The notes under the pieces: model-generated | The model's input: the letters and a program-made list of their open reading frames with translations, nothing else | Database searches by the model: none | Told to the model about the DNA's origin: nothing | Shown here: positions 4,202-20,151 of the stretch, piece after piece | Layout: each line of letters begins with the position of its first letter | How positions within the stretch are numbered: the stretch's first letter is position 1 | Made by a program: the position numbers and the translations under genes | Source: an uncultured SAR86 cluster bacterium | GTDB lineage: Bacteria > Pseudomonadota > Gammaproteobacteria > Magnimaribacterales > D2472 | Reading direction: 5' to 3' | NCBI GenBank assembly: GCA_902596165.1 | Contig: CACJSU010000012.1 | Location: 1-40,016, forward strand | DNA length: 40,016 bases

Positions 4202-5686
4202 ATGTTTCAAAAAATAGCTCCAAAACGCTTCCTTCTCTCTATGTTTTTAATATCTACTTTTATTGGCATAACACTTACTTATTTAAAGGAGGCCGACCAG
4301 CTTTTTGCTCAGATCCAAACTCAAATTTCTGATAGCTTGGGATGGTTAATAATATTACTTACTAATGGCTTTTTAGTGTTCGTAATTTATTTAGCGTTTA
4401 GCAGACATAAAAGACTTATTCTTGGTGGGCCAGATGCTAAACCGGAGTTCTCACGAGCAAATTGGATAGCCATGCTTTTTAGTGCTGGCCTAGGTGTGGG
4501 ATTATTATTTTATGGTGTAGCTGAACCTATCATGCATCTTAGCTCGGATGTTATCCATAAAGAGGGTGCCTCTTTTTCAGATAAGGCCAATCTTTCTATG
4601 AACCTTGCATATTTGCATTGGGGATTTCATGGCTGGGCAATTTATGGTGTTGTTGGGTTATGTTTTGCATATTTTGCATATAATAATAAATTGCCCTTTC
4701 GCGTAAGTTCTTTCTTTTCAGGTCCTTTCACAAGAAATATTTGGGGAAGAGTGTCCTTAGATGTTGTTGCAATTATTGCCACAATATTTGGTATAGCTAC
4801 ATCTTTAGGTCTTGGAGCAAATCAAATTAACTCTGGCCTAAGTTATATGGGTATTATTGAAGGCAGTTTTATTAATACTGTTGGGATTGTCATTCTGATC
4901 ACACTGATGGGACTGGCAAGCGTTGTTTTAGGTTTAAAAGTAGGTATTAAAATCTTGTCTCAAATAAACATCGTTTTGTGCATTTTTTTCCTATCATTTA
5001 TTTTTTTAAGTGGGCCGACAAGTTATATCCTGGATGGCCTGGTACAAAATTTAGGTTCATATGTCCAAAAATTATTGAGCTTATCTACAAATACTCAAGG
5101 TTATTCTGACTCTTCTTGGCAAAATGATTGGACTCTTTATTATTATTCATGGTGGTTTGCTTGGTCTCCGTTTGTAGGATTGTTTATTGCGAGAATATCT
5201 TACGGCAGATCAATTCAAGAATTCCTCGTAGGGGCTGTGCTTGTGCCAACTTTTATTGTTTTTATTTGGATGGGTGTTTTTGGTAATGCAGCTATTTACC
5301 AAGAGTTTATAGAGCCATCATCTCTCAGTACTGCAATTAACAACGACATAACCATCTCATTATTTATTTTCTTAGAGCAATTCCCTGTTTCACAAATTAT
5401 CATGTGGCTAGCCATTATAATAATCTTAACTTTTTTTGTTACCTCATCTGATTCAGGGGCTTTGGTTACCTCAATGTTAACTGCAGCAAAAAAAGAAAAT
5501 TTTAAAGATGAGCCACCAATGATTTTAAGAATTATTTGGGCTATATCACTAGGCGTAATTTCTATTGTGCTTTTAGCTGGAGGTGGGATAGGAGCTCTGC
5601 AAACATCCGTCATAGTTACTGGAGTTCCCTTTGCGATTTTGGTTTCATTTGCTGCAAGAAGTCTTCTGAAAGATCTCAATAAATGA
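4202..5686 (+). CDS. BCCT-family transporter (betaine/carnitine/choline type)
   Basis: This 494-residue inner-membrane protein has about twelve hydrophobic segments and BCCT hallmarks. These are GGPDAKPEFSRANW followed by the Gly-rich helix FSAGLGVGLLFYGVAEP (about 78-105), and the Trp-rich TM8 segment YYYSWWFAWSPFVG...YGRSIQEF at about 313-343. It ends with a TSSDSGALVTSM segment. Family members import trimethylammonium compounds and DMSP. The Gly-x-Gly-x-Gly pattern in the first motif resembles sodium-coupled BetP rather than the exchanger CaiT. The long charged C-terminal osmosensor tail of BetP is missing, so osmotic gating is less likely and nutrient uptake more likely (inference). It overlaps the next gene by four bases. 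No clear Shine-Dalgarno precedes the start. Confidence 0.95.
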   Translation: MFQKIAPKRFLLSMFLISTFIGITLTYLKEADQLFAQIQTQISDSLGWLIILLTNGFLVFVIYLAFSRHKRLILGGPDAKPEFSRANWIAMLFSAGLGVGLLFYGVAEPIMHLSSDVIHKEGASFSDKANLSMNLAYLHWGFHGWAIYGVVGLCFAYFAYNNKLPFRVSSFFSGPFTRNIWGRVSLDVVAIIATIFGIATSLGLGANQINSGLSYMGIIEGSFINTVGIVILITLMGLASVVLGLKVGIKILSQINIVLCIFFLSFIFLSGPTSYILDGLVQNLGSYVQKLLSLSTNTQGYSDSSWQNDWTLYYYSWWFAWSPFVGLFIARISYGRSIQEFLVGAVLVPTFIVFIWMGVFGNAAIYQEFIEPSSLSTAINNDITISLFIFLEQFPVSQIIMWLAIIIILTFFVTSSDSGALVTSMLTAAKKENFKDEPPMILRIIWAISLGVISIVLLAGGGIGALQTSVIVTGVPFAILVSFAARSLLKDLNK

Positions 5687-6288: not shown

Positions 6289-8889
6289 ATGACAGAACAT
6301 TCCTCTAAATTTCCATCTGAAGCAGAAGTAGTTATCGTCGGTGTTGGCGGTATTGTAGGATCGATGGTTGCCTACTGGCTTGCAGAGCTAGGACAAAAAA
6401 ATATTGTAGGCCTAGAAAAATCTACAATTATTCCTTCAGACATAGCTTCAACTGCTCACGCTTCTGACTTTGTCTATAACACAACACATGACAAACTAGG
6501 CTGTTGGGCAACAAACTTTAGTAGAAAGTTTTATGAAGACAATGGCTTTTTTTTAAAAAAAGGTGGCTTGGAAATTTGCCGGAAAGATGATGATGCTCGC
6601 TGGGAGGAGCTAAAGCGTAAGGTTGAATCAGGAAAGGCTTTTGGGACTAACATAAAGTTAATTTCTGCCTCAGAAGCTAAGGAAAAATTTCCCCTTCTTG
6701 ATGAAGAATCCATTAGAGGAGCGATGTGGGACCCAGATGCTGGTCTGGTTACCCCTCGCTCGCAAGATGTTGTTAACTTTGCGGTAGAGACTGCTAAAGA
6801 AAAAGGTGCGCTATCTACATTCACTGATACACCAGCTATAGATTTTGATGTTGAAAACGGTCGTATCACTGGGGTTAAGACTGATAAAGGAACAATCAAA
6901 ACTAATAAAGTTGTCATAACATCTGGAATATGGGGACCCTTAATGGGTAAAAAAGCTGGGGTTCCAGTTCCATTAATGCCTGTTGAACACCCTTTGTTAT
7001 TTTTTGGCCCTCTACCAGAAATTCAAGGAACAGATGAGTTTCTTGTGTATCCCCTACTTCGTGATCAAGGTAACTCGGCATATGTAAGAGATACCGGCAG
7101 ATTACACGGAGGTATGCTGGAGTGGGGGTATTATGAAGATAAAGAGCCTAGGTTGGTTGACCCTGAAGATATTGGCAACCCAGAAAAAACGATGATATCT
7201 GATTCAATGAGATATCTAGATCTTGAAGAGGTGGCAGAACCTCTTGAGAAGGCATTTGAAACTACACCCATCCTTAATGAGCTTGGTTGGGATGAAAAGA
7301 GCTCATTTAATGGTTTGCTATCAGTAACACCCGATGCTGGATCTTTGATTGGAGAAAGTCCTGAAGTAAGAGGTTTCTGGTTATGTGAAGCAGTGTGGGT
7401 AAAAGACGGTCCCGGATGTGCAAGACTGCTTGCTGAATCAATGATTCATGGCAAAACTCAAATGGATATGCACTCTTTTGATATTGCAAGATTCTACCCT
7501 GCCCAAAAAGAAACTGCTTTCGTAAAAACACGATCTTTTGAAAATGCTCAAACAATTTACACCCCTGCTGTTCATCCAAGAGAACCATATATTAGCCATA
7601 GAGAGTTGTATGTAAGTCCCTTTTATCAAAGAGAAAAGGAGCTTGGTGGGTTCTTTGATAATGAAGTGGCTGGTTGGGAGAGAGCTTTGGCTTATGAAAG
7701 CAATCAACAAAAGCTAGAAAATTATTTAAAAGAAATTCCTGTCAGGGAAAATGAATGGGATCGAAGGCATGTGCCCTATGAAATTGCTAATGCGGAACAT
7801 CTTGCCATGAGTGATTCTGTTGGCATGATCAACTTATCTCACTTCCCTATCATGGATATCGAAGGCAAAGATGCCGAGCGAATGCTTGAATATTTATCTG
7901 TTGCAAAAGTTGGTGGTGACACCCCTGAAGGTAGGATGATTTATACCAACTTCCTAGATGAAGATGGTGGAGTGCATGCAGATCTAACTATCTCTCGTTT
8001 AGGCAAAGATCGTTATCGCGTTGTTACTGGCGGTGCAGATGGCAATCGAGATTGGGTAACTTTGCGAAACTATCGTGATGATAATGGATTAGACGCTGAT
8101 ATTAAAATTCGCACTCATGACATAGCAACACTCGGATTATGGGGACCTCAGGCAAAAAATGCTCTAGGTCACTTTATTGATCCCAATGAAATTTCAATAG
8201 AAAACTTCCCTTTTGCAGCTGCAAAAAATCTTACGTTAAATTTAGCTGAAGGGAAAAAAATTGATGTATGGGCATCACGTATTTCCTATGTTGGAGAAAG
8301 TGGTTGGGAAATTTATCTAAACAATGACAGTGAAGAAGGTCTTGCCCTCTATGATTCATTGCTGGAGATTGGAGTCGTGCCAGTTGGTATTGAAACTTAC
8401 GCAAACAGTCGCCGCCTTGAAAAAAGCTTTAGACTTCAGGGAGCAGATCTTGAAACTGAATACAATGCTTGTGAATCTGCTATCGAAAGACGCTTAGTAA
8501 AAGAGGTAGATTTTCATGGCAAGGCAGCCCATTTAGCGCATAGAGAAGAAGAGCCCTGCGCAATTTTATGTACGATGACAATAGATGATCTCAATGTATC
8601 AGGCAGCATGCGTTACCCAGTAGGAAACTCACCAATCATTGATCCTGCATCTGGTGAAGTACCACTTGATAATAAAGGTCGAAGATCTTATACAACTGGC
8701 ATGTCCTACTGTCCCTCGATTAAAAAATTTGTAGTAATGGGTTATTTACCAAAAAATCTTGCTGTGCCAGGTAAATCACTTTTACTAGAGTACTTTAATG
8801 AAAATGGTGATGGTGCATACCCAATGACCGTTCAAATAGCTGGCAAAGGATCTTTATATGATCCAAAAAATGAAAGGGTGCGAGCTTAA
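6289..8889 (+). CDS. FAD-dependent dimethylglycine/sarcosine dehydrogenase-like protein with GcvT domains
   Basis: This 866-residue protein has the two-part layout of dimethylglycine and sarcosine dehydrogenases. An N-terminal DAO-type FAD domain (about 12-400) has VVIVGVGGIVG at 14-24 and the ribose-binding acidic residue at 43. A linker follows, then a folate-binding GcvT domain (about 480-745) and a GcvT C-terminal barrel (about 750-860). Such enzymes oxidise an N-methyl group and pass the C1 unit to tetrahydrofolate. Residue H57 in STAHAS sits where the family has the flavin-linked His of STWHAAG, but the Trp and the following AG are changed. The substrate (dimethylglycine, sarcosine or another methylated amine) is not certain. 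AAGGA seven bases before the ATG fixes the start. It is followed 45 bp later by a DmdA-like gene, probably in one operon. Confidence 0.9.
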   Translation: MTEHSSKFPSEAEVVIVGVGGIVGSMVAYWLAELGQKNIVGLEKSTIIPSDIASTAHASDFVYNTTHDKLGCWATNFSRKFYEDNGFFLKKGGLEICRKDDDARWEELKRKVESGKAFGTNIKLISASEAKEKFPLLDEESIRGAMWDPDAGLVTPRSQDVVNFAVETAKEKGALSTFTDTPAIDFDVENGRITGVKTDKGTIKTNKVVITSGIWGPLMGKKAGVPVPLMPVEHPLLFFGPLPEIQGTDEFLVYPLLRDQGNSAYVRDTGRLHGGMLEWGYYEDKEPRLVDPEDIGNPEKTMISDSMRYLDLEEVAEPLEKAFETTPILNELGWDEKSSFNGLLSVTPDAGSLIGESPEVRGFWLCEAVWVKDGPGCARLLAESMIHGKTQMDMHSFDIARFYPAQKETAFVKTRSFENAQTIYTPAVHPREPYISHRELYVSPFYQREKELGGFFDNEVAGWERALAYESNQQKLENYLKEIPVRENEWDRRHVPYEIANAEHLAMSDSVGMINLSHFPIMDIEGKDAERMLEYLSVAKVGGDTPEGRMIYTNFLDEDGGVHADLTISRLGKDRYRVVTGGADGNRDWVTLRNYRDDNGLDADIKIRTHDIATLGLWGPQAKNALGHFIDPNEISIENFPFAAAKNLTLNLAEGKKIDVWASRISYVGESGWEIYLNNDSEEGLALYDSLLEIGVVPVGIETYANSRRLEKSFRLQGADLETEYNACESAIERRLVKEVDFHGKAAHLAHREEEPCAILCTMTIDDLNVSGSMRYPVGNSPIIDPASGEVPLDNKGRRSYTTGMSYCPSIKKFVVMGYLPKNLAVPGKSLLLEYFNENGDGAYPMTVQIAGKGSLYDPKNERVRA

Positions 8890-8934: not shown

Positions 8935-10239
8935 ATGAAAAATCCAAATCATCCAAGTGTGGATCAAAGCGATCGCGTGGTTCCATATAATCTAAGGCAA
9001 AGTGGTCGAACACCTACTGAGTTATTAATCTCAACTAGAGTAAGAAAATCTCCGTTTTGGCATCTATCTCATGAAGCTGGTTGCTGGAGAGCAACTGTTT
9101 ATAACCGAATCTATCATCCTAGAGGATATGTTAGGCCTGAGGATGGTGGCGCCATGGTTGAATATGAAGCATTGGTCAATCGGGTGACTATGTGGAATGT
9201 TGCTGTCGAAAGGCAGATATGTGTTAAAGGCCCTGATGCAGAAGCCTTCACAAATTTTGTTATAACGCGGGATGCTACAAAAATTGAACCTGGAAATGGC
9301 AAGTATGCTATTTTGTGCAACGAAAAAGGTGGCGTCTTGAACGACCCTGTATTATTACGAATAGCAGAAGATGAGTTTTGGTTCTCTATTTCTGATAGTG
9401 ACCTCTTGTTGTGGCTTCAAGGTGTAAATGTAACTAAAAAATATGATGTCATGATTGATGAAATTGATGTTTGTCCTTTGCAGATCCAAGGCCCTCTATC
9501 TGAAGACCTTATGGCCAAACTTGCTGGAGAAGAGCTCAGAGAAATTCCTTACTACGGTCTTATGGAAACCAACATCGAAGGCGCTGATGTTGTCATAAGT
9601 CAGACAGGCTTTACCGGAGAAAAAGGTTATGAAATCTATGTGCGGGATGCTCATGAAAATGCTGAAATTGTATGGAATGCTGTTCTTGAAGCAGGTGAAG
9701 AGTTCGGTTTGATGGTCATAGCTCCAGCTCATCATCGAAGAATCCAAGCTGGTATCTTGTCATGGGGTCAAGACCTTGACCATGAGACTTCTCCTTTTCA
9801 GGTTAATCTAAGCTACCAGGTACCTCGAAATAAAGAAGCTGATTACATTGGTAAAAAAGAACTAGAAAGGCAGCGAGCGATAATTGATGATGGAAAGTTT
9901 CCATTTAAAATGCGAATGGTTGGCATGATTTTTGGCGGAAAACAAATCACAGATTACGCGCCTGATTTTTGGTTAATTGCTGATACAGATGGTAATGACA
10001 TGGGTTATGTCACTTCGCCATGGTGGTCACCAGAACTAGAAACAAATGTGGCTTTGGGCTGGGTGCCATGGACCTCATCAGAAATTGGTACTAAATTACA
10101 AGTCAGATTGCCTGACGAGTATTCTGAATCATCCGGAGTTGCGGTAGAGGGTGAAATTGTTGATGTACCATTTAGAGAATCTGTAAATCCTAATAAGAGA
10201 GAAGTTCAGAAAGAAAAAGGACTGGATTACGCAGACTAG
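8935..10239 (+). CDS. DmdA/GcvT-family tetrahydrofolate-dependent methyltransferase, paralogue 1
   Basis: This 434-residue protein belongs to the GcvT/DmdA aminomethyltransferase family and is a clear paralogue of the convergent gene at 10276-11403. Shared blocks are RVRKSP, VYNRIYHP, WNVAVERQ, TRD, NDPVLL, ISDSDLLLW, LQIQGP, TGFTGEKGYEIYV and GILSW. Family members move a methyl or methylene group from a sulfonium or amine compound to tetrahydrofolate. It has an N-terminal extension of about 24 residues and a longer C-terminus than DmdA. The late block reads TSPFQVNL where DmdA-type proteins have NNPxExGL, suggesting another substrate, perhaps a methylated amine fed to or from the FAD/GcvT protein just upstream. 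A G6 tract seven bases before the ATG is the likely ribosome binding site. Confidence 0.88.
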   Translation: MKNPNHPSVDQSDRVVPYNLRQSGRTPTELLISTRVRKSPFWHLSHEAGCWRATVYNRIYHPRGYVRPEDGGAMVEYEALVNRVTMWNVAVERQICVKGPDAEAFTNFVITRDATKIEPGNGKYAILCNEKGGVLNDPVLLRIAEDEFWFSISDSDLLLWLQGVNVTKKYDVMIDEIDVCPLQIQGPLSEDLMAKLAGEELREIPYYGLMETNIEGADVVISQTGFTGEKGYEIYVRDAHENAEIVWNAVLEAGEEFGLMVIAPAHHRRIQAGILSWGQDLDHETSPFQVNLSYQVPRNKEADYIGKKELERQRAIIDDGKFPFKMRMVGMIFGGKQITDYAPDFWLIADTDGNDMGYVTSPWWSPELETNVALGWVPWTSSEIGTKLQVRLPDEYSESSGVAVEGEIVDVPFRESVNPNKREVQKEKGLDYAD

Positions 10240-10247
10240 AATTGATT

Positions 10248-10279
10248 ATGAGATCGGCTCAAAAAAGAGCTGATCTCAT
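10248..10279. terminator. Bidirectional terminator between convergent DmdA-like genes
   Basis: A 13-bp stem (ATGAGATCGGCTC/GAGCTGATCTCAT, one G-T-type mismatch) encloses an A6 loop. It lies between the two convergent GcvT-family genes and overlaps the stop codon of the leftward one. Confidence 0.75.
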
Positions 10280-11403
10280 TTTGCTCTCCCCAACCAGGGA
10301 AGATCAACAGTGGTTGCTTTTAACTCACAATCTGGGCCTGAGATAATAATTTCTTGACCGCTCTTTGCATGCTCAATATCTAAAATCGTATAACAAATAT
10401 TCTTATTCAGTCTTGGTGAATACACCATAGCATTCATGGATCCTACCCTCTTGTTATTAATCAAAACAGGCCAATGCTCGGCGTTGAAGATAGTTAATGG
10501 ATCACCGTGGATCTCTGCCCCGACTAATTTTCTCTTTGGGCTCTTCACAGAGAGCTCTCGTAATGCATCTTTTCCAATGAAATCATCCTCTTGATCAAGA
10601 TCCACTACCCAATCTAATCCAACCTCATATGGATTATTAGTTCTATCTATATCCGCTAAGTAACTTAGTATTCCCCCTTCTAATCTAAGGATTATGTTTG
10701 GTGAGCCTGGGCTGATATTAAATTCCTGTCCCGCTTGCCAAAGAATTTCCCATAGCTCATCTCCCTTAGAATGATCTTGAAGAAAAAGCTCGTAGCAAAG
10801 CTCTTTGCTGTAACCCATTCTAGCTACAACTAAAGGAATCCCTTTATGCTCAATTTCCTTAAACCTATAAAAGCTAATATCATTGACCCAATCTCCAAAA
10901 ACTTTGATCATCAGTTTTGTTGAATTAGGTCCTTGAACTTGAAGAGGTGATACATCGGGCTCATCAACATCTACATCAAATTTATATCCTGCTGCTATGC
11001 CTTGAGCCCACAAGAGCAGATCTCCATCGGAAACTGAAAACCAATAACAATCCTTATCAATTTTTAGCATGACAGGATCGTTGATTAAGTTTCCTTTGAA
11101 ATCTGTTAAGGGGGTATACATTGCCTGCCCAATTGAGCATTTTTTAATGTCTCTAGGTGTAAGGAACTGTGCAAAGGCTTCGGCTTCAGGGCCTTTAATT
11201 TGAACTTGGCGTTCAACACCTACATCCCATAACTGAACACCATTTAAGAGTTTTTTATAATCTTCAACAGTCCCATCATAGGTAACTGGCATGTACATAT
11301 GGTTGTAAACTGAAAATGCTGTTGCCCCATACTTGATGGTGGAATTAAAGTATGGTGATTTTCTTACACGAGGGCTAAAAACTACTTTAGAGGTATTGTA
11401 CAT
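10276..11403 (-). CDS. dmdA: Probable DMSP demethylase or close DmdA-like THF methyltransferase, paralogue 2
   Basis: At 375 residues this matches the usual DmdA length of about 370. The order of motifs follows DmdA closely: RVRKSPY (12-18), VYNHMYMP (32-39), WDVGVERQVQIKGP (59-72), TPRD (82-85), PLTD...LINDPVMLK, SVSDGDLLLWAQGI, DVSPLQVQGP, VARMGYSKE, EGGILSY and NNPYEVGL. DmdA transfers a methyl from dimethylsulfoniopropionate to tetrahydrofolate, giving methylmercaptopropionate and 5-methyl-THF. The next gene upstream on the same strand encodes a MetF-like reductase able to reoxidise 5-methyl-THF, which supports a methyl-THF-forming role. DmdA has non-DMSP relatives, so the substrate should be treated as probable only. 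The Shine-Dalgarno is poor. Confidence 0.72.
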   Translation of the reverse strand: MYNTSKVVFSPRVRKSPYFNSTIKYGATAFSVYNHMYMPVTYDGTVEDYKKLLNGVQLWDVGVERQVQIKGPEAEAFAQFLTPRDIKKCSIGQAMYTPLTDFKGNLINDPVMLKIDKDCYWFSVSDGDLLLWAQGIAAGYKFDVDVDEPDVSPLQVQGPNSTKLMIKVFGDWVNDISFYRFKEIEHKGIPLVVARMGYSKELCYELFLQDHSKGDELWEILWQAGQEFNISPGSPNIILRLEGGILSYLADIDRTNNPYEVGLDWVVDLDQEDDFIGKDALRELSVKSPKRKLVGAEIHGDPLTIFNAEHWPVLINNKRVGSMNAMVYSPRLNKNICYTILDIEHAKSGQEIIISGPDCELKATTVDLPWLGRAK

Positions 11404-11459: not shown

Positions 11460-12323
11460 TTATTGAAATTCATCCAACCAATCAATCGTTTGTTTGACGC
11501 CGCCGATTGGAAAAAAATGAACTTTCTCAATGTTTAATTTTGGGTCTTTGGCTTTGCACTCAGCTAGCTCATTTAAGATTTCTGTAGGTTTATATGGCAA
11601 CAATAATTTTGTTAAATCTTTTGCTCTTTTAGTCAGAACTTTCATGGAGGCGCCTATCCCACATTCAATAGAAAATTTTAATAATGTTTGGAGTTTTGTT
11701 GGTCCTGCTATACCGATGTGAATCGGGATATCAATTCCTTCTTTTTTGATGCTGTCTGCCCATTTTTTAACAACGCCAGCATCAAAACAAAATTGAGTTG
11801 CTATGGCCATTATGGCATCTGTTCTCTTAGAATATTCTTGCTTCCATGATAAAGCTTCAGAGACTTTTGCATTGCCGCCATCAGGATCAATATCTTTATT
11901 TCCTTCAGGATGTCCAGCTATATGCAATCTTGTAAAACCAGCCTTATCAAACAAGCCTGATTCAATCAATTGAATAGAAGAATCGTAATCTCCTAATGGC
12001 TCGGATGATCCCCCTGCCAATAAGAGTGCTTCATTTACTCCGGCTTCATTCTGATACATAGAAATCCAATCACTTAACATTGCCTTGTTTTGAATGATTC
12101 TGGCCGGTATATGAGGCATGACCGTAAAACCCTCATCAGCAATTCTTTTGGCCGTGGCAACCATAGATAAAATATCTTCATTTTGGATATGGGCTATATA
12201 GACTCTAGTATTTTTTGGGAGAACCTCACTAAAAGATTCTATCTTTGCAGCAGATTTTGGAATAACCTCAATGGAGTATCCAGAAATAAAGTCTTTGAAG
12301 TTTGAATGAACGATTTTTTCCAT
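11460..12323 (-). CDS. metF: Methylenetetrahydrofolate reductase-like protein (MetF family)
   Basis: This 287-residue protein shows MTHFR-family blocks: SIEVIPK near the start, HIQ, MPHIPAR, the LLLAGG strand, HIAGHPEGN, IATQFCFD and IHIGIAGP. These line the FAD and folate sites of the TIM barrel. The enzyme interconverts 5-methyl-THF and 5,10-methylene-THF. Being directly upstream of a DmdA-like gene (56 bp gap, same strand) it more likely oxidises methyl-THF made by demethylation than supplies methionine synthesis. This belongs to the divergent MetF group often linked to methyl catabolism rather than the standard biosynthetic MetF (inference). The leader before the ATG is T-rich with no obvious Shine-Dalgarno. 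Confidence 0.85.
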   Translation of the reverse strand: MEKIVHSNFKDFISGYSIEVIPKSAAKIESFSEVLPKNTRVYIAHIQNEDILSMVATAKRIADEGFTVMPHIPARIIQNKAMLSDWISMYQNEAGVNEALLLAGGSSEPLGDYDSSIQLIESGLFDKAGFTRLHIAGHPEGNKDIDPDGGNAKVSEALSWKQEYSKRTDAIMAIATQFCFDAGVVKKWADSIKKEGIDIPIHIGIAGPTKLQTLLKFSIECGIGASMKVLTKRAKDLTKLLLPYKPTEILNELAECKAKDPKLNIEKVHFFPIGGVKQTIDWLDEFQ

Positions 12324-12367: not shown

Positions 12368-12829
12368 TTAAGCCCTAAAATCCTTGAATGTAAAATATTT
12401 TCTATTGAGAATTTTATTATAAAAAATTGCAAATAAAACTATAAATGATGCTCCAGCTGCAACAGGAATAAGTATGAAAGCTGCTCCTTTGGCGCCCAAA
12501 ATTGCAATGATAGGATTAGCTCCAGCTGGCGGATGAACGGTCTTAGTTAGCATCATCAAGAAAATTGCCAATCCAACTCCAAGCCCAGCGCTGAGTTCAG
12601 AAGAGCCAAATATTGCAAATACAAAAACTCCTGAAAAAGCAGAGATTATATGCCCAAAGAAGACATTCTTTGGATGAGCCAAAGGGCTTTCGTGAACTGC
12701 CATAACTAAAACCATGCTTGCGCCAAATGGAGGTATCAACCATAAATTGCTTTCATCAAAAGAATTAATATATGCGAGCGCAGAAATACATAAAAATGCT
12801 CCAAGCCCTGAAATAATATTGTTTTTCAC
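12368..12829 (-). CDS. HPP-family integral membrane protein
   Basis: This 153-residue inner-membrane protein has four or five hydrophobic helices and the motifs that name the family: PPFGASMVLV, SPLAHPKN and TVHPPAGANP. Bacterial HPP proteins have no settled function. Some plant homologues move nitrite. The gene is divergent from the tmpA-like gene and 44 bp upstream of metF on the same strand, so it could be co-transcribed with metF and dmdA. A transport role for a small anion or C1/phosphonate product is possible but unsupported. Confidence 0.85.
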   Translation of the reverse strand: MKNNIISGLGAFLCISALAYINSFDESNLWLIPPFGASMVLVMAVHESPLAHPKNVFFGHIISAFSGVFVFAIFGSSELSAGLGVGLAIFLMMLTKTVHPPAGANPIIAILGAKGAAFILIPVAAGASFIVLFAIFYNKILNRKYFTFKDFRA

Positions 12830-12973: not shown

Positions 12974-14059
12974 ATGGATTTTCAGACGGATAAAACCTCA
13001 TTAAAAATTATAAATAATAAAAGAGTGAAATATGAGCTTCCATTTCTTTGGATAAGGGATAACTGCTCTTGCAACGATTGCAGGATTCAAGAAACTCAAG
13101 AAAAAAGATTTATGCTTAACTCTATCCCCGCAGATTTAAAGCCTAAGAAAATTACTATTAATGAGGGCACTATTAATGTAATTTGGCCGGACGAGCATGA
13201 GACTATCATACGGTTTAAAGATTTAGAATTTTTAAAAAAACCTAGAAAGCCGGAAAAAATACTTTGGACTAATGATTTCATCCCAAATAATTATGATTGG
13301 TCTGATTTTCTTAAAGATGATTGCGCTGCAATAGATGCGTTTTCTGAATTTATCACTAAAGGTGCGATATGCATTTCAAACTCTCCATGCATTCCAAACT
13401 CATTGGAAGATCTAGCTCCAAGACTTGGCCCGGTAAGAGAAGTATTATTTGAGCGTATTCATAATGTCTCTGTTGATGGTCATACATACAATATTGCGCA
13501 TACCTCTTTAGAGGTCCCGCCCCATAATGACTTTGCCAGCTACTCTTGGCCTCCAAGCGTCCAAGCACTGCATATGCTTGAAAATGAATGTGAAGGCGGA
13601 AAATCAATGATAGTTGATGGCTATAAAGTGCTCAGTGATCTAAAAAATGACCATCCTGAGTTCTTTAAAATTCTGGCAACCTTTTCGGTTCCTTTTAGAG
13701 AATTTGATGAAGAAAATGAAACTTATGCAAATGAGCCAATCATCAGGCTAAATTCTTCAAATGAGATAATTGGGCTGAGATACTCCAACCAATTAATGCA
13801 AATGATTGATCCAAGGCAGAAAAATTTAGATACATTTTATAAGGCCTATCATGAACTATGTAAGAGGGTGAATGATAAAAAATATAAATCAACTTTTCGA
13901 CTTGAAGCTGGCAATATACTATTAGTCTCCGCTCATCGAGTCCTTCACGGAAGAGAAGAGTTTAAGCCTAGCGGTAAGCGCCATCTGCAGGATGCCTACT
14001 ATGAGCTTGATAACATAGAAAACAATTTGGTACTTTATAAAGAATTACGAGGTAATTGA
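12974..14059 (+). CDS. tmpA: TmpA-like Fe(II)/2-oxoglutarate oxygenase (gamma-butyrobetaine hydroxylase family)
   Basis: This 361-residue protein has the two-domain layout of gamma-butyrobetaine hydroxylases. An N-terminal zinc domain has C31, C33, C36 and H75. A double-stranded beta-helix has iron ligands H184 and D186 (PPHNDF) and distal H325 (VLHGREE), with R336 placed to bind 2-oxoglutarate. These spacings agree with the human enzyme. Many such genes next to an HD-domain gene are now known as TmpA, which hydroxylates 2-(trimethylammonio)ethylphosphonate at C1. The gene is followed after one base by a TmpB-like HD gene, which favours TmpA over carnitine synthesis. The betaine-processing neighbours also fit, since glycine betaine is the product of the TmpAB route. 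Substrate remains inferred. Confidence 0.8.
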   Translation: MDFQTDKTSLKIINNKRVKYELPFLWIRDNCSCNDCRIQETQEKRFMLNSIPADLKPKKITINEGTINVIWPDEHETIIRFKDLEFLKKPRKPEKILWTNDFIPNNYDWSDFLKDDCAAIDAFSEFITKGAICISNSPCIPNSLEDLAPRLGPVREVLFERIHNVSVDGHTYNIAHTSLEVPPHNDFASYSWPPSVQALHMLENECEGGKSMIVDGYKVLSDLKNDHPEFFKILATFSVPFREFDEENETYANEPIIRLNSSNEIIGLRYSNQLMQMIDPRQKNLDTFYKAYHELCKRVNDKKYKSTFRLEAGNILLVSAHRVLHGREEFKPSGKRHLQDAYYELDNIENNLVLYKELRGN

Positions 14060-14060
14060 G

Positions 14061-14618
14061 TTGGTAAAAAAAGTTAGTTTTACATCAATGGATCAAGGCA
14101 CCAAAGAGGATTATGATCTAGTAGCAATTCATGACTCAAAGAATGAAAGAAGCTTATCTAAACGTGTGATTGAGTGGCTTCAAATGATGGATGGGGATTC
14201 TCCTTATCAAATTAGCAGGCTTCAGCATTCACTGCAAACTGCTACACGAGCAGAAGAAGATGGCGCTGATATTGAAACAATTGTTTGCGCCCTGCTTCAT
14301 GATATTGGTGATGTAATATCTCCCTCCAATCATTCACAAGTTTCTGCTGCGCTATTAAGGCCTTACATAAGTGAAAAAAATTATTGGATAGTCCTACATC
14401 ATGGCCTATTTCAAGGCTACTATTGGATGCATCATTATGATGAGGATAGAAACTCTAGGAACCGATACAAAGACCACGCATACTATCAAGACTGTATAGA
14501 TTTTTGCTCAAAATGGGATCAAAAATCATTTGATCCGAATTACAAAACAAAGTCTCTGGAGTATTTTATTCCAATGATTGAAAAAATCTTCTCAAGAGAT
14601 CCAAGGTCCTTTGTGTAA
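14061..14618 (+). CDS. tmpB: TmpB-like HD-domain mixed-valence diiron oxygenase
   Basis: This 185-residue HD-domain protein resembles PhnZ/TmpB oxygenases that cleave C-P bonds, not a phosphohydrolase. Candidate metal ligands are H56 (in YQISRLQHSLQTA), H80-D81 (LLHDIGD), H91, H113 or H114, and D153. The H56 to HD spacing of 24 equals that of PhnZ H34 to H58-D59, and Y49 may be the residue that gates the iron site. TmpB turns hydroxylated trimethylammonioethylphosphonate into glycine betaine and phosphate. The gene starts at a TTG one base after the tmpA stop, or possibly at the in-frame ATG at 14088. Tight coupling to tmpA is the best functional clue. The usual automatic label would be HD phosphohydrolase. 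Confidence 0.78.
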   Translation: MVKKVSFTSMDQGTKEDYDLVAIHDSKNERSLSKRVIEWLQMMDGDSPYQISRLQHSLQTATRAEEDGADIETIVCALLHDIGDVISPSNHSQVSAALLRPYISEKNYWIVLHHGLFQGYYWMHHYDEDRNSRNRYKDHAYYQDCIDFCSKWDQKSFDPNYKTKSLEYFIPMIEKIFSRDPRSFV

Positions 14619-14659: not shown

Positions 14660-15769
14660 TTAAAACTCAATAACTGAACGAATGCTTTTTCCTTCATGCA
14701 TTAAGTCAAATGCTTTGTTGATATCCTCAAGAGGCATTTTGTGAGTAATAAGATCATCTATATTAATCTTTCCGTCCATGTACCAATCAACTATTCTTGG
14801 TACGTCTGTTCGCCCTCTTGCGCCCCCAAAAGCGGTGCCTCTCCATGAGCGACCGGTAACAAGCTGAAAGGGTCTGGTTGAGATTTCTTGGCCAGCACCC
14901 GCAACCCCAATAATGCAACTTTCACCCCAGCCCTTATGACAGCATTCAAGAGCTTGCCTCATCACCTCAACATTCCCAATGCACTCGAAACTATAATCAA
15001 CCCCTCCGCCGGTCATTTCAATAATGTGATCGACTACATTTTCAATATTATTAGGGTTAATAAAGTCAGTCATACCAAATTTAGTCCCTATGTCAGCACG
15101 GGAATCATTTAAATCTATTCCAATTATTCTTGAAGCACCAACCATTTTCGCGCCTTGAATAACATTGAGACCTATGCCTCCTAATCCAAATATTGCTACC
15201 GTGGATCCAGCTTCAACCCCCATGGTGAAAGCCACAGCCCCGATACCTGTAGTTACTCCACAACCGATATAGCAAATCTTGTCGAATGGAGCATCCTTTC
15301 TAACTTTTGCTAAAGAAATTTCAGGGAGCACAGAGTAGTTAGAAAATGTGGAGCACCCCATATAGTGAAGAATAGGCTTGCCACCCAGTGAAAATCTACT
15401 TGTGCCATCAGGCATAATACCTTTACCTTGTGTCTCTCTTACCGCCTGACACAAATTAGTTTTTGGATGGAGGCAAAACTCGCATTCGCCACATTCAGCG
15501 GTGTAAAGAGGTATTACATGATCTCCAGGCTGCAAACTTTTAACGCCCTTTCCAACCTCGACAACTATGCCGGCACCCTCATGACCTAAGATTGCTGGAA
15601 AAGCTCCTTCAGGATCATCCCCTGAGAGAGTAAAAGCATCTGTATGACATACACCAGTCGCTTTCATTTCAACCAGAACCTCTCCTGCCCTAGGCCCCTC
15701 TAGATCAACTTCATGAATCTCCAGAGGCTTTCCAGCCTCGAAAGCAACCGCTGCTCTGGTTTTAATCAA
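14660..15769 (-). CDS. frmA: S-(hydroxymethyl)glutathione dehydrogenase (class III alcohol dehydrogenase)
   Basis: This 369-residue zinc alcohol dehydrogenase has the class III pattern: GVCHTDAF with the catalytic Cys, GHEGAG with the catalytic His, structural zinc cysteines in [15 protein letters not shown], the Rossmann motif GLGGIGLN, and [12 protein letters not shown] near the C-terminus. It oxidises the glutathione adduct of formaldehyde to S-formylglutathione with NAD. It is the last gene of the fhs-fdh-frmA operon. The start is a TTG with AGGGAG six bases upstream. No S-formylglutathione hydrolase (frmB) lies nearby, so the route to formate must be completed by a distant gene. It converges on tmpB without a clear terminator. 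Confidence 0.95.
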
Positions 15770-15803: not shown

Positions 15804-17000
15804 TTACTTCTTAAACTTAGCCGCTTCTTCAGATCCTCCAGTTGCGGTTCCCTTAGTATAGGAATGAGCTCCCATGCCAGCAAGATCACCGTCCTGAACA
15901 ATTAAATACTGATTTCTAATTTCTTCGCCATCAAAGAAACATTCTAATATTTCTCTAACCCCATCTGCATATCTTGTTTGCGCTGACAATGAGGTACCTG
16001 AAGTGTGCGGTGTCATGCCATGGTGTGGCATTGTTCTCCAAACATGATCATTAGGAGCTGGTTGAGGGAACCAAACATCTCCTGCATATCCGCTCAACTG
16101 TCCTGATTCTAAGGCCCTTACGATGGCATCCTTATCACAAATCTTCCCTCTAGCTGTATTGATAATATAAGCTCCAGGCTTACATTTGCTAATCAAATCA
16201 TCATTAAACAAGTGTTCTGTTTCAGGATGCAAGGGGCAACTGATATTGATAACATCACAAGCACCAACCAAAGATTCAATCGAATCATGGTAAGTTAAAT
16301 TCAATTCAGCTTCTTGGTCTGAACTTAATCTGTGTTTATCAAAGTAATGCAAGTGAACATCAAATGGATGCATCTTTCTCAACATGTCATAACCAATACG
16401 ACCAGCTGCAATTGTTCCTATGTGCATGCCTTCAACATCATAAGATCTTTGAACAGCATCAGCTATATGCCAACCACCCTCATTCACTATTCTGTGTTGA
16501 TTGTGATAATCCCTCACCAAAGCAAGTATCATCATAACGATATGTTCTGCTACTGAGCGTGAATTGCAGTAAGTCACCTCAACCACATCAACTTTATGAT
16601 CCATGGCAGCTTGCAAATCTACGTGGTCAGAACCAATGCCTGCTGTAATTGCCATCTTGAGATTGGGCGCGCTCTCCATTCTTTTTCTTGTTAAATAGTA
16701 GGGCCAAAAAGGTTGAGAAATGACAATATCTGCATCAACCAATTCCTTGTCTGCGGTGCAGCCATCAGCGTCTTTGTCTGATGTAACAACCAATGTATGA
16801 CCTCTATCCTCTAGAAATTTCCTTAGACCTAGCTCACCAGATACACAGCCAAGCAATTCCCCAGGAGTAAAATCTCTTCCTTTGGGACTTGGTAATGACA
16901 TGCCATCTGGATATTTTTCAAGTTTTGGCAGTTCCTTGAGCGGATAACTTGAGGGCATTCCGCCTTTAGGGTCGTCGTATAAGACACATAATATTTTCAT
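15804..17000 (-). CDS. fdh: NAD-dependent formate dehydrogenase
   Basis: This 398-residue soluble enzyme follows Pseudomonas-type formate dehydrogenase (about 400 residues) almost block for block: KILCVLYDDP, SGELGLRKFLE, ISQPFWPYYLT, AGIGSDHVDL, VTYCNSRSVAEH, the NAD motif AAGRIG, NTARGK with the catalytic Arg (about 284), and MTPHTSGTSL with the catalytic His (about 332). The Asp after the second Rossmann strand (HYFDKHR) marks NAD rather than NADP preference. It oxidises formate to CO2, giving NADH. It sits between fhs and frmA, so it can take formate from 10-formyl-THF and from formaldehyde oxidation. GGAGG precedes the ATG. Confidence 0.96.
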   Translation of the reverse strand: MKILCVLYDDPKGGMPSSYPLKELPKLEKYPDGMSLPSPKGRDFTPGELLGCVSGELGLRKFLEDRGHTLVVTSDKDADGCTADKELVDADIVISQPFWPYYLTRKRMESAPNLKMAITAGIGSDHVDLQAAMDHKVDVVEVTYCNSRSVAEHIVMMILALVRDYHNQHRIVNEGGWHIADAVQRSYDVEGMHIGTIAAGRIGYDMLRKMHPFDVHLHYFDKHRLSSDQEAELNLTYHDSIESLVGACDVINISCPLHPETEHLFNDDLISKCKPGAYIINTARGKICDKDAIVRALESGQLSGYAGDVWFPQPAPNDHVWRTMPHHGMTPHTSGTSLSAQTRYADGVREILECFFDGEEIRNQYLIVQDGDLAGMGAHSYTKGTATGGSEEAAKFKK

Positions 17001-17023: not shown

Positions 17024-18697
17024 TTAAAATAATCCTTGAATTAATCCTTTATCATCAACATCTATATTTTCTGCTGCAGGTATTCTTGGCAAACCTGGCA
17101 TAGTCATAATGTCACCACATATTACAACAATAAATTCAGCTCCTGCTGATAATCTAACTTCCTTGATTGGAACGTCGTGCCCTGACGGAGCGCCCATTAA
17201 TAATGGATCAGTTGAGAAACTGTATTGAGTCTTTGCCATACAAATTGGGTATTCTCCAAATCCATCATCCTCTAATTTTTGAAATTGATTCCTTACCTTT
17301 TTATCAGCGATGATTTCGGCTGCACCATAAATATTGTGAGCTATATGTTGGGTTTTATCCCAAAGAGACATTTCATTGTCATAAAGAGTTTTAAATTGAG
17401 ATAGGTTTGCATCAGCAATTTTTACTACCTCTTCTGCTAGTTCTGCTGCACCTTTCCCGCCCTTTTCCCAATGGGAAGAAATTTTGCATTCGACACCAAT
17501 CTTTTTGCAATAATCAATAATTGCTGCATGTTCCTTTTGAGTATCAGTGATGAAATCATTAATGGCTACAACAACAGGAACGCCAAATTTTTTAATGTTT
17601 TCAATATGTCTCTCAAGGTTTTTGCAACCTTTGGTCACTGCATCTATATTTTCAGTACCAAGATCATCTTTTTTAACGCCGCCATGCATTTTTAATGCCT
17701 TAGTCGTAGCAACCAATACAACGGCATCGGGCTTTAATCCTGATTTTCTACATTTAATATCAAAAAATTTTTCTGCGCCCAAGTCTGCCCCAAAACCTGC
17801 CTCAGTAACAACATAATCTGCAAGTTTCAAGGCAGTTTTAGTTGCAATTACTGAATTACAACCATGAGCAATATTGGCAAAAGGTCCACCATGAATAAAT
17901 GCTGGATTATTCTCAAGTGTTTGAACAAGGTTAGGCTGGAATGCATCTTGCAATAGTGCAATCATAGCTCCATCAGCATTGAGTTGTTTTGCTCTTACTG
18001 GCTCATTGGATCTTGTATAACCAATTACTATGTTTCCAATTCTTTGCTTTAAGTCATCAATATCTGATGCCAAACAAAACACTGCCATAATCTCAGATGC
18101 AACAGTTATATCGTAACCACTTTGTCTCGGTATCCCATTTCCAGTTCCACCAAGACCACAGGTAATATCTCTCAATGATCGATCGTTCATATCAACCACC
18201 CTTTTCCAAGTAATTCTTCTAGGATCAATATTGAGCTTGTTGTCCCAATGGATATGATTGTCAATTAATGCGGATAAGAGATTATGCGCAGCGCCAATCG
18301 CATGAAAGTCTCCCGTAAAATGTAGATTGATATCTGTCATCGGAATGACTTGAGCAAATCCTCCGCCAGCAGCACCACCCTTCATTCCAAAACATGGTCC
18401 TAAGCTTGGCTCTCTCAAACAAATCATGGCCTTTTTACCGTTGTGGCATAGCCCATCCACCAAACCAACACTCGTGGTAGTCTTGCCCTCTCCAGCTGGA
18501 GTTGGAGAAATAGCAGTAACTAAAATTAATTTACCATTATCAGCATCTTGAAGTTTTTCTGGGATAATCGAAAGATCAATTTTCGCTTTGAATTTACCGT
18601 ATTGTTCTAAATACTTATCCTCGATACCTAACTTATCAGCAATACTTTGGATTGCTTGTATTTCTGCCTCTCTGGCGATATCTATGTCTGTTTTCAC
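17024..18697 (-). CDS. fhs: Formate-tetrahydrofolate ligase
   Basis: This 557-residue enzyme has the family P-loop [12 protein letters not shown] near 65-76, then [28 protein letters not shown], the ANIAHGCNS and [16 protein letters not shown] blocks, and a [10 protein letters not shown] end, all standard for Fhs. It links formate, ATP and THF to 10-formyl-THF. Next to formate dehydrogenase and methyl-THF-forming enzymes it may run in reverse, releasing formate and conserving ATP (inference). It is the first gene of the operon with fdh 23 bp downstream. The start is GTG, since an in-frame TGA lies just upstream. The nearest purine tract is a G6 thirteen bases away. FolD, needed between MetF and Fhs, is not in the window. 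Confidence 0.96.
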
Positions 18698-18897: not shown

Positions 18898-20151
18898 ATG
18901 AGCTTTTTTAAGAGTTTAATTTCGTCAATAAAAGAACGGTCACTGTTAAAAAGCAGTTATTTTCGCTCAAAAGATTTTGGCATTCTGCATGAAGATATTT
19001 ACAAAGCTTTGGATTCTGTTATGTCAAAAAGCGGGGAGATCTCTTCATTGGTTTTTGCTGAGCATCTCTCAACTTTGATAGAAGACCTAAATGATAACGA
19101 ATTTATAGAGTTTTTTGAAAATCTCCACACAAAGTATGACATCGATTCTGAAAATCTACTTCAAGCATCAAATATATATTCTAAAAATAAAACACAAAAA
19201 AACTTAGAGCTCATTTCTCAAGCTTCTGAGCCTCAATGGGTGGAACTCTTTAAAAGATTAAATACAGTTTCAGAAGGAACTCTAAGATTGGTTCGACTAA
19301 GACAAAGACTAATAACTTTGAAGAAAGAAAGCCCAAGCCTTGAATTCTTTGACAGGAGTCTCTTAAAGCTGTTCAAGCATTGGTTCAACCCTTCGTTTTT
19401 AGTGCTAGAAAGCATAGACTGGTCCACGCCCGCCAATATCTTAGAAAAAATCATTGCCTATGAGGCTGTCCATGAAATTAACTCATGGGAAGACCTTCGA
19501 GCTAGACTGGCGCCAGATGACAGAAGATGCTTTGCTTTTTTTCATCCTCTTATGCCAGATGAGCCGCTGATTTTTGTTGAGGTAGCTCTATGCAACAAGA
19601 TTCCAAGCACCATAAATGAAATTATCGCACTCGATAGAATTGTAACTTTTAACCAAGATATTAATACTGCTGTTTTCTACTCTATTTCAAATTGCCAAGA
19701 TGGACTTTCTGGCATTTCATTTGGTAATTTTTTAATTAAGCAGGTTGCGCATAAGCTCAAACAAGAAAATGATGGCTTGGATAAATTTGTAACGCTTTCA
19801 CCTGCTCCTGGTTTTGTGCAATGGTTAAAAGAAAAATCTATTAATGAAGATACAGATGAAGATATGCTTCTTAAACAAGCTCTAATTTATCTTACTGCCT
19901 CTGATCGAGAAGATGGATCGCCTAATGACCCAGTAGCTAAATTTCATTTAGGCAACGGAGCTATCTTAGAAAGGATAAATTTAAATGCCGACTTGTCGTC
20001 TAAGGGGCTAATTCAATCAAAAGGAGTTATGGTTAACTATCTTTATAACCTAGATACATTAGAAGAGAATCATGAGCTATTTTTTAAAACAAAAGAGGTA
20101 AAACAATCAGATGCAATTAAGAGTTTGAGAAAAAAACTTCAGATTAAATAA
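18898..20151 (+). CDS. mcd: Malonyl-CoA decarboxylase
   Basis: This 417-residue protein is helical at the N-terminus (about 1-150). Its catalytic domain has the family blocks FAFFHPLMPDEPLIFVEVAL (about 213), FYSISNCQDGLSGISFGNFLIK (about 259), TLSPAPGF and AKFHLGNGA, where the His (about 349) matches the catalytic His of mammalian MCD. It converts malonyl-CoA to acetyl-CoA and CO2. Bacterial mcd often sits with a malonyl-CoA synthetase and malonate transporter. Neither is here, so the gene stands alone between the C1 operon (divergent) and a nuclease gene (convergent). A link to the C1 island is not supported. Confidence 0.92.
   Translation: MSFFKSLISSIKERSLLKSSYFRSKDFGILHEDIYKALDSVMSKSGEISSLVFAEHLSTLIEDLNDNEFIEFFENLHTKYDIDSENLLQASNIYSKNKTQKNLELISQASEPQWVELFKRLNTVSEGTLRLVRLRQRLITLKKESPSLEFFDRSLLKLFKHWFNPSFLVLESIDWSTPANILEKIIAYEAVHEINSWEDLRARLAPDDRRCFAFFHPLMPDEPLIFVEVALCNKIPSTINEIIALDRIVTFNQDINTAVFYSISNCQDGLSGISFGNFLIKQVAHKLKQENDGLDKFVTLSPAPGFVQWLKEKSINEDTDEDMLLKQALIYLTASDREDGSPNDPVAKFHLGNGAILERINLNADLSSKGLIQSKGVMVNYLYNLDTLEENHELFFKTKEVKQSDAIKSLRKKLQIK

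Follow-up and report, generated by a model that had tools for sequence, protein, structure and literature searches.

A TmpA/TmpB-like gene pair of a SAR86 bacterium with differently built predicted pockets in both proteins

An oxygenase gene followed at once by an HD-domain gene, in the manner of the phosphonate-degrading TmpA/TmpB system, raises the question of whether the same pathway or a different one is encoded. The locus in question lies in a stretch of 40,016 nucleotides (hereafter the window; positions 1 to 40,016 of contig CACJSU010000012.1, assembly GCA_902596165.1) from an uncultured SAR86 cluster bacterium, whose genome measures 1.45 Mb and is 87% complete. Two genes, both verified as open frames on the plus strand, are separated by a single base, as an earlier note on this DNA had placed them: (i) a Fe(II)/2-oxoglutarate (2OG) oxygenase of the BBOX/TmpA family (12974..14059, ATG start, 361 residues); and (ii) an HD protein, here termed HD-Q, whose diiron motif is complete and of the oxygenase type (14061..14618, TTG start, 185 residues). 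These family assignments agree with the earlier note, which had further taken the pair for TmpA and TmpB acting on 2-(trimethylammonio)ethylphosphonate. That substrate is not upheld, as the phosphonate contact positions are replaced in both proteins and the family scores are far below the cut-offs. Since the phosphonate-holding residues are missing, the pair probably acts on a different small compound. The favoured reading, to which about an even chance is given on sequence grounds, is an uncharacterised 2OG hydroxylase and HD oxygenase that together degrade a non-phosphonate compound, most likely an osmolyte bearing a carboxylate, for instance one of betaine type.

A domain scan describes the oxygenase as a TauD-family protein with a GBBH-like N-terminal domain. 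Sequence search against solved structures returned human BBOX (1.4e-37), TmpA (1.3e-35) and DfmD (6e-30), and the best PDB folds for the predicted model (mean pLDDT 82) were BBOX, then TmpA. Among the NCBIfam models, the best score belonged to BBOX TIGR02409 (225.5, cut-off 414.75), with TmpA at 218.7 (cut-off 400). Residues were compared in an alignment of 74 rows, built from reading frames of 300-460 amino acids with matches of at least 200 amino acids, a filter that drops the partial copy of genome G095 and other partial contigs; the window clade comprises 47 rows, the window among them. The predicted zinc site (C31, C33, C36, H75) and iron site (H184, D186, H325), both pointed out in the earlier note, are kept in all 47, and the window oxygenase carries in them the Cys3His and HxD...H signatures of BBOX; R336 is the predicted 2OG arginine.

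The pocket, located by alignment, is formed by F159, H163, N173, H176, S271, N272, Q273 and Y342. In BBOX the trimethylammonium cage consists of Tyr177, Trp181 and Tyr194 (PMC13257696), and aromatic residues for the trimethyl group are described as common to BBOX, TmpA and DfmD (PMC9296572). The corresponding cage of the window oxygenase is F159, H163 and H176, with aromatics limited to F159 and Y342. His occupies the Trp181 and Tyr194 positions in 47/47 clade rows; the F159/H163/N173/H176 set is equally invariant, and Ser-Asn-Gln (S271, N272, Q273) is present in 46/47, the lone exception being a Gemmatimonadetes row with N-T-A. Rows were called TmpA-type if the oxygenase adjoins a TmpB/PhnZ-type HD gene (11 of the 14 adjoin a TmpB over its cut-off). 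These rows have Asn-Asn/Ala-Arg where the window clade has Ser-Asn-Gln; in all 14, Arg aligns with R288 and both cage positions are aromatic, the set of three zinc Cys occurs in none, and R269 of the window oxygenase is common to them. Aromatics at both cage positions are also found in the BBOX-like rows L024, L027 and L028; because the same rows have Phe at the Tyr177 position, Phe there is not diagnostic. The BBOX examples L150-L152 stand in the oxygenase tree and not in the residue table. The phosphonate ligands of TmpA are given as N187, N287 and R288, and the anion ligands of BBOX as N191 and N293 (PMC9296572). The window oxygenase has Q273 at the R288 position and keeps N173 and N272, the equivalents of BBOX N191/N293. 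As predicted from this alignment, its pocket retains the anion-holding Asn pair and is without the TmpA-specific Arg and two of the cage aromatics.

A parallel pattern is seen in the HD protein. Against solved structures it matches PhnZ at 1e-7 (profile 1e-10) and TmpB at 2e-3 (profile 7e-7), and the ten best PDB matches of its AlphaFold model (mean pLDDT 93) are all PhnZ/TmpB chains, PhnZ then TmpB, with TM 0.62-0.69. The oxygenase-type HD diiron motif reads H...HD...H...H...D (PMC8177086). All six predicted ligands (H56, H80, D81, H91, H114, D153) are present in the alignment, including the H to HD spacing (H56...H80-D81) to which the earlier note had drawn attention; Q118 within HGxFQ and a DQ..FDP motif are further marks. 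An alignment of HD reading frames of 150-330 amino acids (104 rows, 78 after removal of duplicates) divides into an HD-Q set of 63 rows, the window included, and 15 TmpB/PhnZ-type rows. The six ligands are found in all 78, one HD-Q row having X at H80. Beyond the ligands, the two sets separate cleanly. The TmpB/PhnZ-type rows (15/15) carry the Glu of YxxE, a Lys (HVAAKRYL), an Arg three residues before the last Asp, and an LQGG loop; the HD-Q rows (63/63) have Tyr or Phe at the Glu column, Gln (Q118) at the Lys column and never Arg at the Arg column, and LQGG occurs in 0/63. The Lys, the Arg and the loop Ser (K108, R158 and S126 of PhnZ) are presumed by us to be phosphonate contacts. YxxE, which forms a gating loop in PhnZ (Y24/E27) and TmpB (Y30/E33) (PMC8177086), precedes the first His in 13/15 TmpB/PhnZ-type rows versus 0/62 HD-Q rows with the site located. 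In the window protein these columns read -SPY, so that the gating Tyr sought by the earlier note is absent, and the Lys, Arg and LQGG positions are Q118, S150 and a gap. Its NCBIfam scores are 34.9 for TmpB (cut-off 300) and 43.8 for the PhnZ family TIGR03276 (cut-off 214.6). Given the PhnZ/TmpB fold and the six ligands, the HD protein is oxygenase-like, but by its pocket it is not TmpB. The same genome encodes a second HD-Q paralogue with 36% identity (G000:C8:28373-28897, L002), near a gene that by eye resembles a Rieske-type ring-hydroxylating oxygenase.

A tree was built for each protein, and each supports a separate clade for the window protein while leaving its placement relative to TmpA/BBOX or TmpB unsettled. 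In the oxygenase tree, a quick tree of 43 rows with 13 of the clade's 47, the window clade is separated with SH-aLRT 100 by a branch of 2.08 changes per site. The free tree sets BBOX and the window clade on one side of a branch and TmpA opposite (support 95), and grouping the window clade with TmpA gave approximately unbiased (AU) test p values of 0.656 against the BBOX rows, the constrained tree being slightly better, and 0.167 against all other rows. The oxygenase thus forms a separate deep clade, and the AU tests do not decide between BBOX and TmpA as its nearer relative. A long branch (SH-aLRT 100) separates HD-Q from TmpB/PhnZ in the HD tree, which left out 19 of the 78 rows as near copies; the attachment of TmpB to HD-Q is not settled (AU p 0.39). 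As estimated, the trees show distinctness and not descent. Of the findings against which the earlier note had weighed its reading, a firm grouping with carnitine-forming BBOX was not obtained, and the HD protein has complete diiron ligands and a fold nearest oxygenases, not hydrolases.

The pairing of the two genes is not a matter of chance, as the adjacency is repeated across genomes. The close HD type (at least 77% identity) was found in 12 of 151 SAR86-order genomes, with the oxygenase adjacent in 12/12; in one of these (L010, from G095) only the C-terminal half of the oxygenase is left, next to an HD gene that is intact. Elsewhere the adjacent pair is present in HTCC2207, a second HTCC2207-named bin (L084), two Woeseiaceae records, one of which, L074, seems to come from the genome listed as G316 (the match is identical), and a Pseudomonadales bin, while in a Gemmatimonadetes bin the two genes are adjacent but divergent. 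An HD gene adjoins the oxygenase in 21 of 46 oxygenase loci. Oxygenases of the BBOX/TmpA family from two further lineages (L034/L035 and L130) likewise have HD-Q as a neighbour. A phylum sample gave 44 HD-Q-like matches in 40/299 genomes, of which 29 besides the window's own were taken with 1.5-kb flanks. Among these 29, HD-Q adjoins PhyH 2OG oxygenases in three (L109:635-2034, L111, L116:1501-3053), lies near AraC-type regulators in two, where SoxB- or MttB-type genes come into view farther out, and in six, all of one genus, stands between a gene that we take to be BKACE-type (below model cut-offs) and a carnitine 3-dehydrogenase gene (over cut-off). What recurs around HD-Q is a 2OG oxygenase, quaternary-amine metabolism, or both. 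The carnitine-dehydrogenase loci (L137:3283-10141, L108, L112-L115, L120), whose genus is presumably rhizobium-like, give HD-Q a role that the known carnitine route does not explain. Among the literature matches listed, taken as titles and abstract openings with few subscription papers, nothing concerned an HD-Q-like protein or the pair in SAR86.

From one species to another the pair appears to spread as a small cassette of about 2-3 kb, ending at guaA, tRNA-Ile or tRNA-Gly repeats. SCGC AAA076-P13 (L049:7626-12036; the same contig as G101, placed in the SAR86 family of the window) and HTCC2207 (L055:7629-9718) have in common a 2090-bp block with 99.2% identity, which holds the pair alone between unrelated flanks; in HTCC2207 the pair has 32% GC versus 45% in the flanks. 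At its ends the block has copies of the 3' terminus of guaA, ATTGAGTGGGAATAA. This gene end is a known integration site with the core GAGTGGGA (PMC7775301). The true end of guaA and three more copies are arranged in L049 as a row of segments, the pair occupying one of them; in HTCC2207 the guaA end and the cassette share a contig and are about 11 kb apart. In L047 (5289-9939) the segment with the pair measures 3.0 kb and is bounded by 57-nt copies of the tRNA-Ile 3' end; the intact tRNA gene lies upstream of it. In L041 (7818-9869) the segment measures 1975 bp, with the tRNA-Gly gene on one side and, on the other, a degraded copy of that gene's first 40 nt. Since the pair moves alone to three kinds of site, its two genes are suggested to be sufficient together. 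A DUF6538 stretch, which we take to be an integrase-type N-terminus, lies beside the pair in L083; no intact integrase was noticed beside the cassette, for which no systematic search was made. Around the window's own copy no flanking repeat of this kind was found. A phage origin was also considered and dropped, as two viral-contig scans found no relative.

The betaine and methyl-oxidation genes that the earlier note saw around the pair are real. Upstream on the plus strand lie a BCCT betaine/carnitine/choline transporter (4202..5686), a dimethylglycine-dehydrogenase-like FAD oxidoreductase-GcvT fusion (6289..8889) and a GcvT-family demethylase-like gene (8935..10239). They are followed on the minus strand by a GcvT-family protein with dimethylsulfoniopropionate demethylase as its best model (10276..11403; 393.8, cut-off 410), a weakly matching methylenetetrahydrofolate-reductase-like gene (11460..12323; 28 of 293.7 bits) and a membrane protein matching the TM_HPP family (12368..12829), divergent from the pair. 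Downstream, also on the minus strand and all over their cut-offs, are S-(hydroxymethyl)glutathione dehydrogenase (14660..15769), NAD formate dehydrogenase (15804..17000) and formate-tetrahydrofolate ligase (17024..18697). A malonyl-CoA decarboxylase gene (18898-20151) is found near the pair here and in L039, L042-L045, L050 and L053, and fits no pathway found. In the SAR86 record L054 the last part of the oxygenase gene is overlapped by a TM_HPP homologue (80% identity, 9038-9508). Lying beside the oxygenase in two arrangements, the TM_HPP protein is possibly the transporter of the substrate.

In two Woeseiaceae records (L052 and L074) the pair stands in one run after MttB-like, MtgC-like, methylenetetrahydrofolate-reductase-like and methyltransferase genes, with a corrinoid activator as well in L074, and before dimethylglycine-dehydrogenase-like fusion, SoxB and SoxA genes; L074 was scanned gene by gene and L052 partly by similarity to it. 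By its predicted products, this run is a route for the demethylation of glycine betaine to glycine. In L046 the pair follows dimethylglycine-dehydrogenase-like, MttB-like and methylenetetrahydrofolate-reductase-like genes, together with a gene on the other strand that is similar to the MFS transporter of L043. In GC-rich loci, where the simple gene finder picks wrong frames, neighbours were used only with family-scan or tblastn support. One-carbon (C1) and betaine markers, counted by the same rule in controls and leaving out the BCCT transporter and malonyl-CoA decarboxylase, occur in 13/46 oxygenase loci and in 9/21 loci with an adjacent HD gene, versus 3/20 random SAR86 stretches of 17 kb.

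A three-step mechanism may be proposed. The oxygenase, judged by its fold and by the preserved sites for iron, 2OG and zinc, would hydroxylate one CH2 group. HD-Q, with a mixed-valent diiron centre and O2, as its six ligands and PhnZ/TmpB fold suggest, would then cleave the bond beside the new hydroxyl and yield a carboxylic acid. What results, plausibly an N-methyl amino acid such as glycine betaine, would pass to the demethylation and C1-oxidation enzymes encoded nearby. By analogy with PhnZ-like chemistry, candidate reactions are the conversion of beta-alanine betaine to glycine betaine and CO2, or, likewise by analogy, that of gamma-butyrobetaine via carnitine to glycine betaine and a C2 acid. 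A broader proposal, put forward tentatively and with clearly less assurance than the non-phosphonate reading itself, is that HD-Q represents a hitherto undescribed branch of HD diiron oxygenases acting on carbon and not on phosphorus, which would cleave a C-C or C-carboxylate bond after its partner 2OG enzyme, of the BBOX family or a PhyH, has hydroxylated an osmolyte, and which, with a BBOX-family partner, would form a portable cassette integrating site-specifically at guaA and tRNA genes among surface-ocean bacteria.

Several observations weigh against this osmolyte-degrading assignment. The pocket loop of the oxygenase model falls below pLDDT 50 (stretches 159-162, 164-167 and 169-172), and the role of H163 and H176 is therefore taken from the alignment; on account of these two His residues, the substrate may be something other than a quaternary amine. 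The enrichment of marker genes is modest (Fisher p 0.05, or 0.02 without one of the three control matches, at 23% identity), the 21 loci are not independent, many being of shared ancestry, and 12 of them have no marker. No HD gene was present in the fetched stretch at 25/46 oxygenase loci, mostly of SAR86 and many in a housekeeping block. Lastly, 18/29 phylum HD-Q loci have none of the tested neighbours, and HD-Q may therefore have a broader role.

These 18 loci, in which 2OG oxygenases were among the neighbours looked for, also favour a simpler explanation, namely that a plain hydroxylase and an HD hydrolase (phosphohydrolase) act on something unrelated; so does the distribution in the SAR86 order, where window-type HD proteins are far commoner (105/151 genomes) than the oxygenase (30/151). 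Such an explanation is nevertheless considered unlikely, as the oxygenase motif is conserved with every one of its six ligands, the fold is nearest oxygenases and not hydrolases, and HD-Q repeatedly adjoins 2OG oxygenases of different families, at a spacing of one base in the window and with joint transfer of both genes.

The original interpretation, that a differently built pocket still converts 2-(trimethylammonio)ethylphosphonate to glycine betaine and phosphate, is less probable again. It draws on the shared gene order and fold types, on PhnZ and TmpB as the best structural matches of the HD protein, on the similarity of the oxygenase to TmpA and their common R269, on AU tests that do not reject their grouping, and on neighbours for glycine betaine demethylation, which suit the TmpAB product. 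Phosphonate-binding proteins over the cut-off were also present in two of seven distinct genomes among the other carriers, HTCC2207 and one Woeseiaceae (3/8 rows). Against it stand the scores far under the TmpA and TmpB cut-offs and the absence of R288, the Lys, the Arg, YxxE and LQGG altogether. The PhnZ-family model, moreover, exceeded its cut-off in 0/151 SAR86-order genomes, and the ABC phosphonate-binding family did so neither in the genome of the window nor in any of 60 SAR86-order genomes, its own counted; that search gave one match below the cut-off (7.6e-4). A phosphonate operon was rejected on the latter result. That the oxygenase is a carnitine-forming BBOX with an unrelated neighbour, as its best NCBIfam score, zinc site, Asn pair and free-tree branch might suggest, is very improbable, since the score is far under the cut-off, His replaces W181 and Y194 throughout the clade, and the partner is adjacent in 21/46 loci and co-mobile.

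The earlier note rightly expected such pairs to be misread by automatic naming. Proteins adjoining TmpB genes over their cut-off exceed the TIGR02409 cut-off in L146-L149 (G483, G467, G532, G463), and real TmpA genes can therefore be named gamma-butyrobetaine dioxygenase. At L035:1465-2625 an oxygenase scores 403.2 with the TmpA model (cut-off 400), yet it has a W/A/D/M pocket and an HD-Q neighbour. Gene order and an HD motif alone are insufficient to call oxygenase/HD pairs TmpAB or PhnYZ. In surface-ocean data, phnZ has been reported in <1% to ~20% of expected cells (PMC10574752). The PhnZ model gives matches below its cut-off in 105/151 SAR86-order genomes and above it in none, so that a loose threshold could, hypothetically, inflate such counts. 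The near-identical copy of the L049 pair in HTCC2207, which we take to be a cultured isolate, would offer a way to test function.

Compared to TmpA/TmpB of Leisingera caerulea (PDB 6npa-6npd), the pair in the window shares the arrangement of a 2OG hydroxylase adjoining an HD diiron oxygenase and the same folds; it differs in its BBOX-type zinc site and two cage His residues, and lacks R288, YxxE, the Lys and Arg positions and LQGG. Glycine betaine is the known product of TmpAB, and for the window pair a candidate product by analogy. PhnY*/PhnZ (TIGR03276) resembles it in the HD fold, the six ligands and the logic of a hydroxylase followed by a cleaving oxygenase; however, the PhnZ-type positions are replaced in HD-Q, and the partner is of the BBOX/TmpA family and not of the PhyH family to which PhnY* is akin. 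With BBOX the oxygenase has in common the fold, the zinc, iron and 2OG sites and the Asn191/Asn293 equivalents, in contrast to the His at the W181 and Y194 positions and the partner HD gene. Myo-Inositol oxygenase, a mixed-valent diiron HD enzyme that cleaves a C-C bond, is described as likewise without the YxxE loop (PMC8177086). It differs from the window protein in having no 2OG partner, and its fold match to the HD model is weak (2huo, E 0.18). If the proposed cleavage step is real, HD-Q would be the C-C-cleaving counterpart of TmpB.

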